A stretch of 64,000 nucleotides of DNA from Nitrospirota bacterium (GTDB lineage: Bacteria; Nitrospirota; Thermodesulfovibrionia; UBA6902): assembly GCA_016214845.1 (NCBI GenBank), contig JACRMS010000020.1:1-64000 (forward strand). The letters are read 5' to 3'. Positions within the stretch are counted from its first letter, which is position 1. The number at the start of each line of letters is the position of its first letter. This document shows positions 2,748 to 7,904 of this stretch, one piece after another. A program made the position numbers and the translations under genes. Under the pieces are notes generated by a model, which was not told the origin of the DNA, did not search any database, and worked only from the letters and a program-made list of their open reading frames with translations.

Positions 2748-4163
2748 ATGTCTGATATTGTTAACAAACTCTGGGGATTCTGTCACACGCTTCGTCATGA
2801 CGGAATAGACTACGGCGATTACATAGAACAGCTTACTTATCTGCTGTTTCTCAAGATGGCTGATGAGCGGGATATCGAAGTCCCCAAAGGATGCGGCTGG
2901 GCAAGCCTCAAGGAACTATCGGGAACAAGCCTGACTGATCATTATTCCAAAATCCTTCGCAAGCTCCGGGAGGCACAAGGAATCCTTGGTGACATCTTTG
3001 CCCAGTCAATGCCGCGCTTCAATAATCCCGTGAACCTTAAACGCATCATCAATATGATCGACGAGGAACACTGGTCGGAGATGGATGTGGATGTGAAGGG
3101 CGCGGCCTTCGAGGGTTTGCTTGAAAAAGCAGCGAGCGAAGGAAAGAAAGGCGCGGGGCAGTACTTTACGCCTCGTGTTTTGATCCAGTCCATCGTCCGG
3201 GTCATGAAACCGGACCCGCGCGATGTGCGTGATTTCACGATCTGCGACCCAGCCTGCGGTACAGGAGGTTTTTTAGTCTGTGCTTATGAATGGTTGATAG
3301 AGCAGACTAAAGGGGCCTTTGACCGCAAAGATATCAAGCGGATAAAGTCCGCGACCTATTATGGTCAGGATTTAGTACCGCGTCCCAGAAGGCTTGCGCT
3401 CATGAATCTCTTCCTTCATGGGTTAGAGGCGAAGATTTATTTAGGCGATACGATTTATGAACCTAACAGAGGAGAGCTTTATAATTGCGTGCTGACCAAT
3501 CCGCCCTTCGGCACCAAAGGCGCGAATCAGTCGCCCGTGCGGGACGACTTCACAATAGAGACAAGCAACAAGCAACTTAATTTCGTTCAACATGTAATGA
3601 ATATTCTCAAACCCGGCGGCAGGGCCGCGATTGTTCTGCCTGACAATTGCCTCTTTGAAAATAAGGCGGGAGAGGTTTTTGAAATCCTTATGCAGGACTG
3701 CAACCTTCACACTGTCCTGCGCCTGCCGAGAGGCACGTTTACGCCTTACAGCCAGGGAGTGAAGGCAAATGTCATTTTTTTCCAGAAGGGGGTGCAGACT
3801 GAAAACGTCTGGATTTTTGATGCCCGCTCCAACGTTCCCGGGATTACAAAGAAAGACCGGCCGCTGGCTTCGAAGCATTTTGAGGAATTTGAGAAGTGCT
3901 ACAGCAAAAACCCTAATGGTCAAAGTAAGCGGAAAGATTCAGGAGAGGGAGGCCGTTTCCGCAAGTTTCATGTAGATGAGATCAAAGAGCGAAACTTCAA
4001 GCTCGATATCACATGGCTCAAAGATGAATCGCTTGAAGACAGCGACGGGCTGCCCGATCCGCAGGACTTGGCCAGTGAAGCCATTACTGAGCTTGAGGCA
4101 ATGGTTGATGACTTAAGGGATATTGTTTCACTGGTAGAAAAAGAAGAGGGTGTGGAGAAATGA
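2748..4163 (+). CDS. hsdM: Type I restriction-modification system DNA methyltransferase subunit M
   Basis: N6-adenine methyltransferase subunit that uses S-adenosylmethionine and acts in an M2S1 complex with HsdS. The 471-aa protein has an N-terminal helical HsdM_N domain (about 1-130), then GQYFTPR near 138, SAM motif I (DPACGTGGF) near 166 and the catalytic NPPFG motif near 250. The length is normal and all core motifs are intact. The gene follows the broken hsdR by 11 bp, with AAAGGA as ribosome-binding site, and overlaps hsdS by 4 bp (ATGA), so M and S are probably translated in a coupled manner. M plus S alone should still methylate DNA. Confidence 0.95.
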   Translation: MSDIVNKLWGFCHTLRHDGIDYGDYIEQLTYLLFLKMADERDIEVPKGCGWASLKELSGTSLTDHYSKILRKLREAQGILGDIFAQSMPRFNNPVNLKRIINMIDEEHWSEMDVDVKGAAFEGLLEKAASEGKKGAGQYFTPRVLIQSIVRVMKPDPRDVRDFTICDPACGTGGFLVCAYEWLIEQTKGAFDRKDIKRIKSATYYGQDLVPRPRRLALMNLFLHGLEAKIYLGDTIYEPNRGELYNCVLTNPPFGTKGANQSPVRDDFTIETSNKQLNFVQHVMNILKPGGRAAIVLPDNCLFENKAGEVFEILMQDCNLHTVLRLPRGTFTPYSQGVKANVIFFQKGVQTENVWIFDARSNVPGITKKDRPLASKHFEEFEKCYSKNPNGQSKRKDSGEGGRFRKFHVDEIKERNFKLDITWLKDESLEDSDGLPDPQDLASEAITELEAMVDDLRDIVSLVEKEEGVEK

Positions 4164-5563
4164 GTGAGTTGCCGGAAGGGTGGGTGACAACACCACTTCA
4201 AACACTTGCAGCAAAGACGAAATATCCGATAGGAGACGGGGACCACGGTCAGATCAAGCCTGCCACGTACACTGACAAGGGGATTCCTTATATCCGTGTT
4301 GCTGACATGGGATGGGGAAAATTCGAGCCAAACGGATTGGTCTATATCCCAGAATCTGTCCACGAGAAAAATATAAAAAGCGAACTTCATCCAGGAGACA
4401 TTCTGATTGCCAAGACTGGCGCGACTATTGGGAAGTGTTGCATTATTCCTGATACGATTCCGACAGCAAACACCACGTCATCTGTAGGCAAGGTGACAGT
4501 CAATCAAGATATCACGTCGCCTCAATGGATTCTTTACTATTTTCTCAGTCGCGAATTCAAGGAACAGATGTGGGCAGTAAGCGAGAAAACAGCACAGCCA
4601 GGCTTTAACATTGCTGACCTGAAGATGTTTAAAGTCCCCCTCGCTTCTTTGTCCGAGCAAAACCGAATTGTGACAAAACTGGATAAACTATTAGGCAAAG
4701 TGGACGCCTGCGAGAAGCGGCTGACAAAGATTCCGGTCATCCTCAAACGCTTCCGCCAATCCATCCTCGCCGCCGCATGCTCTGGAAGATTGACAGCGGA
4801 GTGGCGAGAAGACGATAGTTACGAAAATGACTTGCCTGCTGACTGGCAATGGATACCGCTCGAAGAACTACTTCCTCGTGGCGGTATATTTGACGGGCCG
4901 TTTGGCTCAAACCTGAAGTCGTCCGACTACACAGACTCGGGCGTCCGTGTGGTTCGGTTGGAGAATGTCGGGCACCTTAGGTTTATCGGAGAAAAGGAAA
5001 GTTTTGTTAGTCGCAAAAAATATGAGACACTTAAGAAGCACACGGTCGGAATAGGCGACATTATCTTTGCTTCGTTCATCTCCGAAGAAATTCGCGTCTG
5101 CCTGCTTCCAGTGCTGGCAACGAAAGCCATTGCCAAAGCAGATTGCTTCTGTTTACGACCCAAGGCGGAGGTAGTAGATCGGCAATACCTTACTTACCAG
5201 CTTGTCAGCAGGGAATCCTATGATAAGCTGGTTGAAGAAGTTCATGGTGCTACGCGTCCACGAATCAATACAACTCAACTCCGCAAGGTAGAGATCAGGA
5301 TATGTCCGCTCCCCGAACAACAAGAAATCGTCCGCCGGGTGGAGGCGTTGTTTGCTCTGGCTGACCAGATCGAGGCCCGCTATACCAAGGCAAAAGCCTA
5401 TGTGGACAAACTCACCCAGTCCATCCTTGCCAAAGCCTTTCGTGGTGAACTTGTCCCGCAGGATCCAAATGATGAACCTGCGTCAGTGCTGCTGGAAAAG
5501 ATTAAGGCGGAGCGGGAGAAGAACGAAAAGACGAATGTTCGGTCTAAAAAAACCACTAAATGA
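4160..5563 (+). CDS. hsdS: Type I restriction-modification system specificity subunit S
   Basis: DNA-recognition subunit of the type I methyltransferase complex. The 467-aa protein shows the usual tandem architecture: target-recognition domain 1 (about 1-170), a conserved helical spacer (RFRQSILAAACSGRLTAEW, about 195-215), target-recognition domain 2 (about 225-400), then a second copy of the helical repeat (LTQSILAKAFRGELVPQ) near the C-terminus. The start ATG overlaps the hsdM stop. The gene is full length, so the modification activity appears intact although the restriction subunit is broken. Recognition sequence cannot be read from the protein. Confidence 0.93.
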   Translation: MSELPEGWVTTPLQTLAAKTKYPIGDGDHGQIKPATYTDKGIPYIRVADMGWGKFEPNGLVYIPESVHEKNIKSELHPGDILIAKTGATIGKCCIIPDTIPTANTTSSVGKVTVNQDITSPQWILYYFLSREFKEQMWAVSEKTAQPGFNIADLKMFKVPLASLSEQNRIVTKLDKLLGKVDACEKRLTKIPVILKRFRQSILAAACSGRLTAEWREDDSYENDLPADWQWIPLEELLPRGGIFDGPFGSNLKSSDYTDSGVRVVRLENVGHLRFIGEKESFVSRKKYETLKKHTVGIGDIIFASFISEEIRVCLLPVLATKAIAKADCFCLRPKAEVVDRQYLTYQLVSRESYDKLVEEVHGATRPRINTTQLRKVEIRICPLPEQQEIVRRVEALFALADQIEARYTKAKAYVDKLTQSILAKAFRGELVPQDPNDEPASVLLEKIKAEREKNEKTNVRSKKTTK

Positions 5564-5618
5564 AAACTGCTTTTTCTGATATAATAACCTCAAATTATTT
5601 CTTCGTTAAATGGGAACG

Positions 5619-6359
5619 ATGAGCAACTATCCAATCTTATCCAAGGCTCCTATCACAGAAGCAGTTATCGACTTTCGCGTAAAAATACGAGAAGACTTGC
5701 GTCTTGAGCAGATTGAGTCAATATACAATGCGGTCTCCGGTCAATACCCGGATAAAAAAGAAAGATTTAAATGGGAAGGGAAACTGGAATTTAAGAAAGG
5801 CGCTCCTCTTCTCTCAAATGCTGCAGAAGCAATTGATGGGTATATGTTTTATTCTGCTGATCAGAAACAGATCCTCCAGACAAGACTGGATGGTTTCACA
5901 TTTAGCAGATTGAAACCTTACGAAACGTGGGAAAGTTTCCGGGACGAAGCACACAGGTTGTGGCAAATCTACAGAGATGTCGTTTCTCCTGAAATTACAA
6001 GAGTAGCTTTACGATATATCAACAAAATAGAAATCCCCCTACCAATAAAAGACTTCGGCGATTATTTGACCGCAGCGCCAATCGTACCAGAAGAACTGCC
6101 GCAAGACGTCAGCAGTTTTCTGACACGTATTGTCATACATGAACAGGCAATTGATGCCGCAGCCATCATTACACAGGCCTTTGAGCAGATTGTTAATCCT
6201 AAGATTCTTCCTGTAATATTAGATATTGATGTATTCAGGCAAAAATCTGAAGGTATAAATGAAGATGATGCTTGGAGTACTATCGAACAATTACGCGATT
6301 TCAAGAATAATATATTCTTTAAAAGTATTACGCCGAAAGCAAAGGAGCTATTTCAATGA
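5619..6359 (+). CDS. TIGR04255 family protein, first gene of a four-gene coupled cassette
   Basis: The N-terminus (SNYPILSKAPITEAVIDF) and the central GFTFSRLKPYETWESF and TRVALRYINKIEIPLP stretches match what I recall of the sporadically distributed TIGR04255 family, which has no established function. About 246 aa, soluble, no signal peptide. An ATG at 5610 is also in frame, but 5619 gives the N-terminus typical of the family. A TATAAT hexamer lies at 5580-5585. The stop overlaps the next start (ATGA). It sits directly after the type I RM genes and is visibly AT-rich compared with the core genes. Confidence 0.75.
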   Translation: MSNYPILSKAPITEAVIDFRVKIREDLRLEQIESIYNAVSGQYPDKKERFKWEGKLEFKKGAPLLSNAAEAIDGYMFYSADQKQILQTRLDGFTFSRLKPYETWESFRDEAHRLWQIYRDVVSPEITRVALRYINKIEIPLPIKDFGDYLTAAPIVPEELPQDVSSFLTRIVIHEQAIDAAAIITQAFEQIVNPKILPVILDIDVFRQKSEGINEDDAWSTIEQLRDFKNNIFFKSITPKAKELFQ

Positions 6360-6853
6360 GTGTTGCAATACAATGTATTGACTGTCCAAGCTTTTTTGTT
6401 GGTCCAAGCAGTACTGGGTTCAGTGATGATTCAAGAAATCTGGTGACGAATCTTCTAAATCAATTCCGGGAAATCTGTGAACCATTAACCATTGGACGTC
6501 ATTTAGAGGAAGCAATGGAGTCGCTTATTGAAGTTTACACAGAATGTACAGAAGCAAACTGGGACGGCTATGGCGCTGAGCCAGTGTCGAAAGATTCATT
6601 TTTTGAGGCATCTAAATTTATAAATTTAATACCATCTTCCTTCCCAATGCCTCAAATTACGGCTGAACCTTCCGGGGAGATAGGGTTAGAGTGGTATAAA
6701 GATAAAAAATTAATATTCGTCATAAGCCTTAGCGGGAAAAACATTGTTACCTATGCCGGGATATTTGGGAGCAACAAGACGCATGGCACAGAATATTTTG
6801 GGGACACGATCCCACCGGTCCTTATAGAAAATCTCAGACGTCTCTATCCATAA
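6356..6853 (+). CDS. Conserved hypothetical protein with NWDGYG motif
   Basis: The 165-aa soluble protein has an N-terminal part without clear features, then ANWDGYGAEPVS near residue 74, AEPSGEIGLEWYKDKK near 108, and a C-terminal segment with GIFGSNKTHGTEYFGDTIP. From memory, proteins of this NWDGYG type recur next to TIGR04255-family genes, but I know of no assigned activity. Translation is coupled to the upstream gene by a 4-bp ATGA overlap. No catalytic motif is evident. The function is unknown and the cassette context is the main clue. Confidence 0.65.
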   Translation: MSVAIQCIDCPSFFVGPSSTGFSDDSRNLVTNLLNQFREICEPLTIGRHLEEAMESLIEVYTECTEANWDGYGAEPVSKDSFFEASKFINLIPSSFPMPQITAEPSGEIGLEWYKDKKLIFVISLSGKNIVTYAGIFGSNKTHGTEYFGDTIPPVLIENLRRLYP

Positions 6854-6864
6854 GATGAGGGGAA

Positions 6865-7248
6865 ATGGATTTAGAACAGGTACTCCCTGAAGAAGACTTA
6901 ACACGTTATATTCTTCATAAAAATCATTTCAGTGCTCTGCATAATAGAGTTAAATATGCAGCCTTCCTTCCCGCGCCTAACGGGGAGACTTCCGTATTTC
7001 GTATTTCAAATCTGTCTGATAATGAAATCTGGGAGACAGGTGACAAAGAAGTAGCGCAGAAACGCGGTATACCGCTGTTTGGACGGGCTGATATTTTAGC
7101 GTCTCAAATCCTTCGAAGACGATTGAGAATAGTGCCTGATGATAAACCACAGCGACATGCAAATATCATTGGATGGCCGGAGGAAAAGTCAGAGCAAAAA
7201 CTAATTGCAATCGAATTGGCCTATAATGCTCGGCTGTACATAAAATGA
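6865..7248 (+). CDS. Conserved hypothetical protein, third gene of the cassette
   Basis: The 127-aa soluble protein begins 11 bp after the preceding stop, with GAGGGG at 6856-6861 as ribosome-binding site. Its C-terminal half contains GRADILASQILRR, then RHANIIGWP and EQKLIAIELAYNARL, which looks like a small conserved domain; I do not recognise a named fold. The N-terminal part carries NRVKYAAFLP and SVFRISNLSDNEIW. The last codon overlaps the radC-like start (ATGA). The tight coupling to its neighbours argues that the three small proteins and the JAMM protein act together, but this is inference. Confidence 0.6.
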   Translation: MDLEQVLPEEDLTRYILHKNHFSALHNRVKYAAFLPAPNGETSVFRISNLSDNEIWETGDKEVAQKRGIPLFGRADILASQILRRRLRIVPDDKPQRHANIIGWPEEKSEQKLIAIELAYNARLYIK

Positions 7249-7904
7249 AAAAGCTGAGAGACATTCCAGAACCGGATCGTCCGCGTGAAAAACTCCGTCA
7301 AAAAGGGGCGGAAGCTTTAACCGACCTTGAACTGATGGCTATTCTTCTGGGCAGCGGAACAAAGACGCATGATGTTATGATGGTTGCAGACCGAATTCTT
7401 AAAGCCCTGGATGGTAATAATGCAAAGCTGGATATAGAAGAATTGCAGAAGATTGACGGCGTAGGATTAGCAAAGGCAACTCTTATTGCAGCGGCCCTCG
7501 AATTTGCCCGCCGTCGCATTCGTCCTGAAGGATTAAGGATCTCTTTCCCTGCCGACGTACTTCCATTGATCCAGCATTATGCCGACCGCAAGCAGGAGCA
7601 TTTTATAAGCATTTCAATAAATGGCGCTAATGAAGTGATCGCAAGTCGTGTGGTGTCTGTCGGGTTGGTTAATAAAACACAGGCACATCCACGAGAGGTA
7701 TTTGCAGATTCAATTACAGACAGGGCGTCAGCAATCATCATTGCTCATAATCATCCATCCGGTGGATTGACGCCAAGTAAAGAAGACACCGAGATTACCA
7801 GACAACTGAAGTCCGCAGGCGAAACCCTCGGCATCCGCCTGCTCGATCATATAATCTTTAACCATAATGGATATTACAGTTTCCTTGAGAACGGAGAAAT
7901 GTGA
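7245..7904 (+). CDS. radC: RadC-like JAB/JAMM domain protein
   Basis: The 219-aa protein has a helix-hairpin-helix region (about 20-95, including LQKIDGVGLAKATLIAAALE) followed by a JAMM metalloprotease-like domain. The metal-binding signature HNHPSGGLTPSKED begins near residue 167, and an upstream acidic residue is present in AHPREVF. RadC family members were once linked to recombination repair, but their biochemical role is unresolved, and they often sit on mobile or defence islands. It overlaps the 127-aa gene by 4 bp and so is the fourth gene of the cassette rather than an isolated chromosomal radC. Confidence 0.88.
   Translation: MKKLRDIPEPDRPREKLRQKGAEALTDLELMAILLGSGTKTHDVMMVADRILKALDGNNAKLDIEELQKIDGVGLAKATLIAAALEFARRRIRPEGLRISFPADVLPLIQHYADRKQEHFISISINGANEVIASRVVSVGLVNKTQAHPREVFADSITDRASAIIIAHNHPSGGLTPSKEDTEITRQLKSAGETLGIRLLDHIIFNHNGYYSFLENGEM

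Follow-up and report, generated by a model that had tools for sequence, protein, structure and literature searches.

In the tripartite toxin-antitoxin (TA) system CmdTAC, as outlined in PMC11618068, an ADP-ribosyltransferase (ART) toxin is accompanied by an antitoxin and a chaperone homologous to SecB, and loss of the chaperone leads to degradation of the antitoxin. In this study, we analysed a stretch of 64,000 nucleotides from a Nitrospirota bacterium (positions 1 to 64,000 of contig JACRMS010000020.1; hereafter, the window), in which three adjoining genes, P1, P2 and P3, encode a member of the family TIGR04255, a WDGYG-domain protein and a protein with a predicted ART fold. We consider this unit to be most likely a new variant of the tripartite TA system with an ART-fold toxin. 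A search of the open-access literature, which covered few subscription papers and no preprints, found no mention of the accession TIGR04255, and on tripartite TA systems and ADP-ribosylation only reviews and CmdTAC surfaced.

A conserved unit of three genes

The genes P1 (5619..6359, with an alternative start at 5610), P2 (6356..6853) and P3 (6865..7248) lie on the forward strand and encode proteins of 246, 165 and 127 aa. The P1 protein matches the NCBIfam model TIGR04255 with 142.5 bits (E = 1.9e-41) against a family cut-off of 30 bits and is therefore a member of that family. P2, the proposed antitoxin, contains the sequence NWDGYGA. With the thresholds applied, neither it nor P3, the proposed toxin, could be placed in a family of Pfam, NCBIfam or PHROG; P3 gave a single SeqA_N row at chance level. 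The sequence-only reading of this DNA had described a coupled cassette of four co-directional genes, the fourth encoding a RadC-like JAMM protein. The open reading frame (ORF) coordinates confirm the arrangement, with 4-bp ATGA overlaps between P1 and P2 (6356-6359) and between P3 and the RadC gene (7245-7248) and a gap of 11 bp between the stop of P2 and the start of P3.

When homologues were checked for adjacency, as that reading had proposed, the order P1-P2-P3 held. P3 occurs in 12 of 198 Nitrospirota genomes. Of its 13 matches, 11 are preceded by adjoining P1 and P2 genes in the order of the window; the other two comprise one at a contig end and one partial match of 42 residues. In a second phylum, P3 was found in 4 of 349 genomes, adjacent to P1 in all four and never seen apart from it. 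Moreover, 49 loci from many phyla were recovered when named genomes were scanned with P1, and most of these loci carry P2- and P3-like genes.

The wider collection of P1 homologues (156 rows) was drawn from Nitrospirota, Pseudomonadota, Cyanobacteria, named genomes, viral contigs and plasmids; the 182 loci examined also include one that the P1 profile missed (L167) and two P3 seeds without P1 (L022 and L026). After 15 rows with less than 1.3 kb of downstream sequence had been left out, a gene began within 30 bp downstream of P1 in 135 of 141 rows, at exactly -4 in 82 of them, as for P1 and P2 in the window. Two coupled downstream genes, both within 30 bp, were present in 120 of the 141 rows and in 66 of 78 rows of the genome-drawn subset, and a coupled upstream gene was present in only 17 of 131. 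This combination of strong downstream and rare upstream coupling indicates that the TIGR04255 gene heads a three-gene unit. The conserved unit is P1-P2-P3, which is adjacent and ordered across phyla far beyond chance. TIGR04255 itself is sporadic; it was detected in 34 of 198, 28 of 349 and 21 of 194 genomes of three phyla (approximately 8-17%) and in none of 14 controls.

The RadC gene (7245..7904, forward strand) does not belong to this unit. Its product is a normal, full-length RadC family protein with a PF04002 JAB domain (1.1e-39), a UPF0758_N domain and an intact JAMM motif (HNHPSG...SxxD). Among the 182 locus records searched, some of which overlap, RadC lies near TIGR04255 in only three loci beyond the window (L046, L047 and L049), and all of these are close relatives. 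None of the three retains an intact RadC frame. RadC is a hitchhiking neighbour because it stands beside three close relatives only and is broken in each, and we therefore rule it out as a component. The idea that the JAMM protein processes or regulates a partner finds no support. Lack of conservation of the JAMM site in linked copies, which that reading had named as refuting its proposal, is what the three broken frames show for RadC. What stands of the proposed four-gene conflict system is a coupled unit that may be a conflict module, with RadC outside it.

The type I restriction-modification (RM) genes that the same reading had placed directly upstream are present as hsdM (2748-4163) and hsdS (4160-5563), both on the forward strand and outside the conserved unit. 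Neither RadC nor these RM genes occur in ten other Nitrospirota triads, within stretches of about 3-20 kb. RM genes lie near few other copies of TIGR04255, with HsdM matches in L042, L073 and L093 and HsdS matches in L047 and L093, and type I RM was ruled out as a component on this ground. The hsdR frame of the window is interrupted by an in-frame TAA at 1333-1335, with helicase and HSDR_N segments before it and EcoEI_R_C after it, which may point either to inactive restriction or to an error in the draft assembly.

Other settings of TIGR04255 units were noted in passing. On two viral contigs (L036 and L037), phage structural genes, recognised by eye, directly follow the unit, which suggests that some units are prophage-borne. 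On a plasmid of Thermus brockianus (L044), a TIGR04255-HEPN unit lies within about 7 kb of an argonaute gene and cas6.

Exchange of second- and third-gene pairs around P1

The third genes are far more varied than the first. Their products form 28 sequence clusters (143 proteins; the clustering excluded L047 and the two rows of L194, whose P1 is broken). Across the 156 rows, the third gene is ART-like or P3-like in 76, of the TQSCD type in 31, of the C6/10 type in 8, HEPN in 6, DUF7689 in 4, HicA-like in 3, zeta in 2, NlpC-like in 2, MazF in 1, PIN in 1 and of another type in 7; 15 rows have no usable third gene. Profile comparison joins clusters C3.0, 2, 3, 9, 12, 23 and 24 into a P3 superfamily (best link probability 94%), clusters C3.1, 4 and 5 into a TQSCD superfamily and two further clusters into a HEPN group. 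In a Pfam scan of ten representatives, known toxin families were recognised in the third slot: PemK/MazF (1.1e-18), PIN (6.8e-11), zeta (3.1e-12) and HEPN (4.2e-6). DUF7689 was also recognised, HicA reached 0.025, which is below its cut-off, and four of the ten gave no match. The HEPN count of six includes one Pfam-scanned member that matched and one (L164) that had no Pfam match and was linked by profile only.

The families of the second gene track those of the third. For example, second-gene cluster C2.1 accompanies third-gene cluster C3.2 in 11 of 11 cases, and P1 stays a single family throughout. This covariation is what suggests an antitoxin-toxin pairing and supports the interpretation of P2-type and P3-type genes as a cognate pair, as judged from sequence families. 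A possible helix-turn-helix is also present in some second genes (HTH_3 at 3.2e-4, which falls short of the cut-off). A maximum-likelihood tree of 150 P1 proteins, built quickly and with long branches, requires the type of the third gene to change at least 24 times (132 labelled proteins; least possible 9; shuffled mean 53.5). These changes indicate that second- and third-gene pairs have repeatedly been exchanged around one P1 family. Because MazF, PIN, HEPN and zeta proteins fill the same slot, P3 is probably toxic, and P2 would neutralise it.

Frame breaks point weakly in the same direction: among 71 loci, two have a third gene split between frames, and no such split affects P1 or the second gene, which is consistent with a toxic P3. 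Separately, P3 is truncated or frameshifted in L047, L051 and L157. In L047 it is cut to its first 28 codons; P1 and P2 are open there and in L051, and no break in them was flagged in L157. Such breakage of P3 is the pattern expected for toxin loss.

Two further third-gene types were observed. TQSCD proteins, the second commonest type, carry QGD ... TQSCD/SHDCD motifs (e.g., L063:7025-7546, L103:1-822 and L094:1-804), and the members tested had no Pfam or PADLOC match. DUF7689 occupies the third slot in L058 (11187-11618, by Pfam) and, by clustering, in L069, L097 and L106; these proteins have conserved Cys and His residues and appear protease-like by eye.

Predicted properties of the three proteins

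The AlphaFold model of P3, built from a 26-sequence alignment, has a predicted local distance difference test (pLDDT) score of 96.3. Its best structural match by VIA-align is KptA/Tpt1 (Z 8.2; root-mean-square deviation (rmsd) 2.9-3.0 over 94 residues). The first 17 rows, from Z 8.2 to 5.8, are 16 Tpt1/KptA entries and AvrPphF ORF2, and lower rows, down to Z of about 4, include TreX/TreTu, SdeA, RES, NarE and classical ART toxins. These are ART-fold proteins, as are nearly all structural matches of P3, and the model supports the assignment of P3 as a predicted ART-fold protein. The P3 profile showed no sequence similarity to any chain in PDB. Within the P3 superfamily (n = 76), three residues stand out: Arg14 (codon 6904..6906), which is kept in 66 members, Ser43 (6991..6993), in 76, and His98 (7156..7158), in 72, with all three codons on the forward strand. 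Their conservation suggests that P3 is an enzyme.

In P2, the first 60 aa are less conserved and the C-terminal domain is more conserved. When the proteins of the window were compared with PADLOC systems, P1, P3 and RadC had no match at E <= 1, and the C-terminus of P2 matched only the candidate PDC-M32A, weakly for the window protein (2e-4) and best for that of L129 (7.3e-9). PDC-M32A was considered as a fusion of P1 and P2, which was not supported. A hydrophobic N-terminal tag was likewise rejected as a general dock for P1 since it is present in only 7 of 31 TQSCD-type and 1 of 76 ART-type second genes. On a plasmid of Acetobacter persici (L268:3456-4761), two tandem P2-like WDGY domains occur in one protein, and the gene overlaps that of the ClpXP adaptor SspB (PF04386, 2.5e-11); TIGR04255 is not annotated nearby. 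This overlap hints at a tie between the P2 domain and ClpXP proteolysis.

A candidate for the dock comes from the PIN toxin of L187. Homologues of this toxin occur in 25 of the 194 genomes of Cyanobacteria, and 30 loci were read. The 29 loci other than that of L187 all lack TIGR04255. In 26 of these 29 loci, the upstream ORF ends, by eye, in R-x-x-[IL]-Y, comparable with the SRESIY end of the second gene of L187, and the N-terminal halves are unrelated to that of the L187 protein; several are, by eye, presumably of the ribbon-helix-helix type. Because the L187 antitoxin keeps the C-terminal, toxin-facing motif and swaps its N-terminus, the different N-terminus is a candidate dock for P1, in one case. 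A similar comparison for the MazF antitoxin, the second gene of L148, found no match in plasmids.

The AlphaFold model of P1 has a pLDDT of 94.5. Six polar residues, E14, R128, R132, N135, D202 and D204, are each retained by 79-89% of 150 relatives. Its structural matches are weak. They include AdoMetDC (1.5e-4, TM 0.27), a guanidino kinase (Z 8.8, rmsd 3.6 over 180), RNA triphosphatase and START, none of them convincing, and a predicted viral protein (8.1e-7); SecB is not among the matches listed. Profiles of P1 and P2 found nothing useful among PDB sequences, and no signal of internal duplication was obtained for P1 by profile. Since P1 shows no SecB profile similarity and no standout solved fold, a role like that of the third protein in toxin-antitoxin-chaperone (TAC) systems is proposed for it by analogy only.

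Interpretation and comparison with known systems

We think it fairly probable that P1-P2-P3 is a three-component TA system with the following mechanism. P3 would be an ART-fold, NAD-dependent toxin. P2 would be its antitoxin, with a C-terminal domain that neutralises P3 and an N-terminal part that docks on P1, and P1 would act as a shared partner that maintains the stability or activity of the antitoxin, holding or sensing through the N-terminus of P2. A trigger that titrates or alters P1 would cause P2 to fail, probably by proteolysis, and the freed P3 would arrest growth by modifying a target in the cell; the unit may serve in phage defence, addiction or stress. The broader view of TIGR04255 as a class, with a constant non-SecB partner, swapped antitoxin N-terminal domains, many exchangeable pairs and an R-S-H ART as its main toxin, is one that we hold only tentatively, at somewhat less than even confidence.

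Several observations weigh against this interpretation. P1 has no match to the SecB model PF02556 at E <= 1, and its hhalign comparison with 29 SecB sequences gave a probability of 0.16% (positive control 100%); neither result gives a sequence signal of a SecB chaperone in P1, and that identity was rejected at the sequence level. By Foldseek alone, P3 is weakly matched (best E 0.053, probability 0.98), and its Z of 8.2 is close to the level reached by unmatched models. The third catalytic residue of ARTs is usually Glu, the usual triads being R-S-E or H-Y-E; P3 keeps R14 and S43 and has His98 at the position of the Glu. No function is known for third genes of the TQSCD, C6/10 and DUF7689 types. 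The locus set is biased to P1 proteins like that of the window, with 49 loci from one close-relative scan. PADLOC genes showed no clear excess in 10 triad neighbourhoods (125 ORFs) over 10 controls (132 ORFs), where ORFs above 700 aa were excluded and at most 14 ORFs per stretch were counted; most of the 59 PADLOC models matched in the triad set trace to a handful of proteins, a single DNA methylase among them. Finally, the MazF-, PIN- and HicA-type loci could be standard TA pairs that landed beside P1, which is disfavoured because of the N-terminal swap and the gene overlaps.

The conserved charged residues of P1 could also mean that it is an enzyme or a ligand-binding protein. According to this view, P1 would be a ligand- or nucleic-acid-sensing enzyme or a true signal receptor, P3 the effector and P2 an adaptor. 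The polar set is shared by diverse relatives, and the weak structural matches of P1 are enzymes or ligand folds. However, these matches are all unconvincing, the second genes co-vary with the third as cognate antitoxins do, and one second gene linked to TIGR04255 ends in a PIN-antitoxin motif; we consider a sensor P1 unlikely. A non-toxic operon, in which P3 is a Tpt1-like RNA 2'-phosphotransferase or a housekeeping ART and P1 and P2 are accessory subunits, would accord with Tpt1/KptA as the closest solved folds to P3. It accords poorly with the sporadic distribution of TIGR04255 and with a third slot that is interchangeable with MazF, PIN, HEPN and zeta, and we judge it quite improbable.

We give very little credence to a defence system of four genes regulated by the JAMM protein. 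The 4-bp overlap of RadC with P3 in the window and its position beside three close relatives favour such a system, but our examination of the remaining TIGR04255 loci did not turn up RadC, and all three linked copies are broken. That unrelated short genes adjoin here by chance, a view for which only the accessory setting beside RM genes could be cited, is already refuted by the conserved order and coupling, and its likelihood is negligible. The three-component TA system thus remains our preferred explanation. If it is true, TIGR04255, a named but unexplained family, becomes a TA controller in the sampled genomes of three phyla that carry it (about 8-17%), several unnamed small-protein families gain a function, and a candidate ART toxin family is added.

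Among known proteins, the likeness of P3 to Tpt1/KptA, RES, TreTu/TreX and AvrPphF ORF2 lies in its predicted fold. P3 differs from Tpt1/KptA and ART toxins in consisting of a single ART-like domain of 127 aa, with an R-S-H set that presumably stands in place of their usual motifs. The PADLOC candidate PDC-M32A has a C-terminal domain like that of P2-type proteins, although no tested P1- or P3-type protein matches PDC-M32A or PDC-M32B, which sets both apart from the unit of the window; PMC12429752 lists PDC-M32 in prophages. The type II TA systems (MazEF, VapBC, HicAB, HEPN and zeta) share their toxins with the third genes of some TIGR04255 loci; unlike them, the TIGR04255 units are led by the TIGR04255 gene, and the N-terminus of the antitoxin in the PIN case is unusual. 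The nearest analogues are CmdTAC and the SecB-type TAC modules, which likewise have three genes for a toxin, an antitoxin and a common third protein. In those systems, the third protein is a SecB homologue; here, it is a TIGR04255 protein of 246 aa without SecB profile similarity, and by SecB sequence the unit falls outside the SecB-type TAC systems, although it may work like one. The order P1-antitoxin-toxin in the window also differs from theirs. If our interpretation is correct, this unit would represent a second, independent case of a shared third protein that governs many TA pairs.
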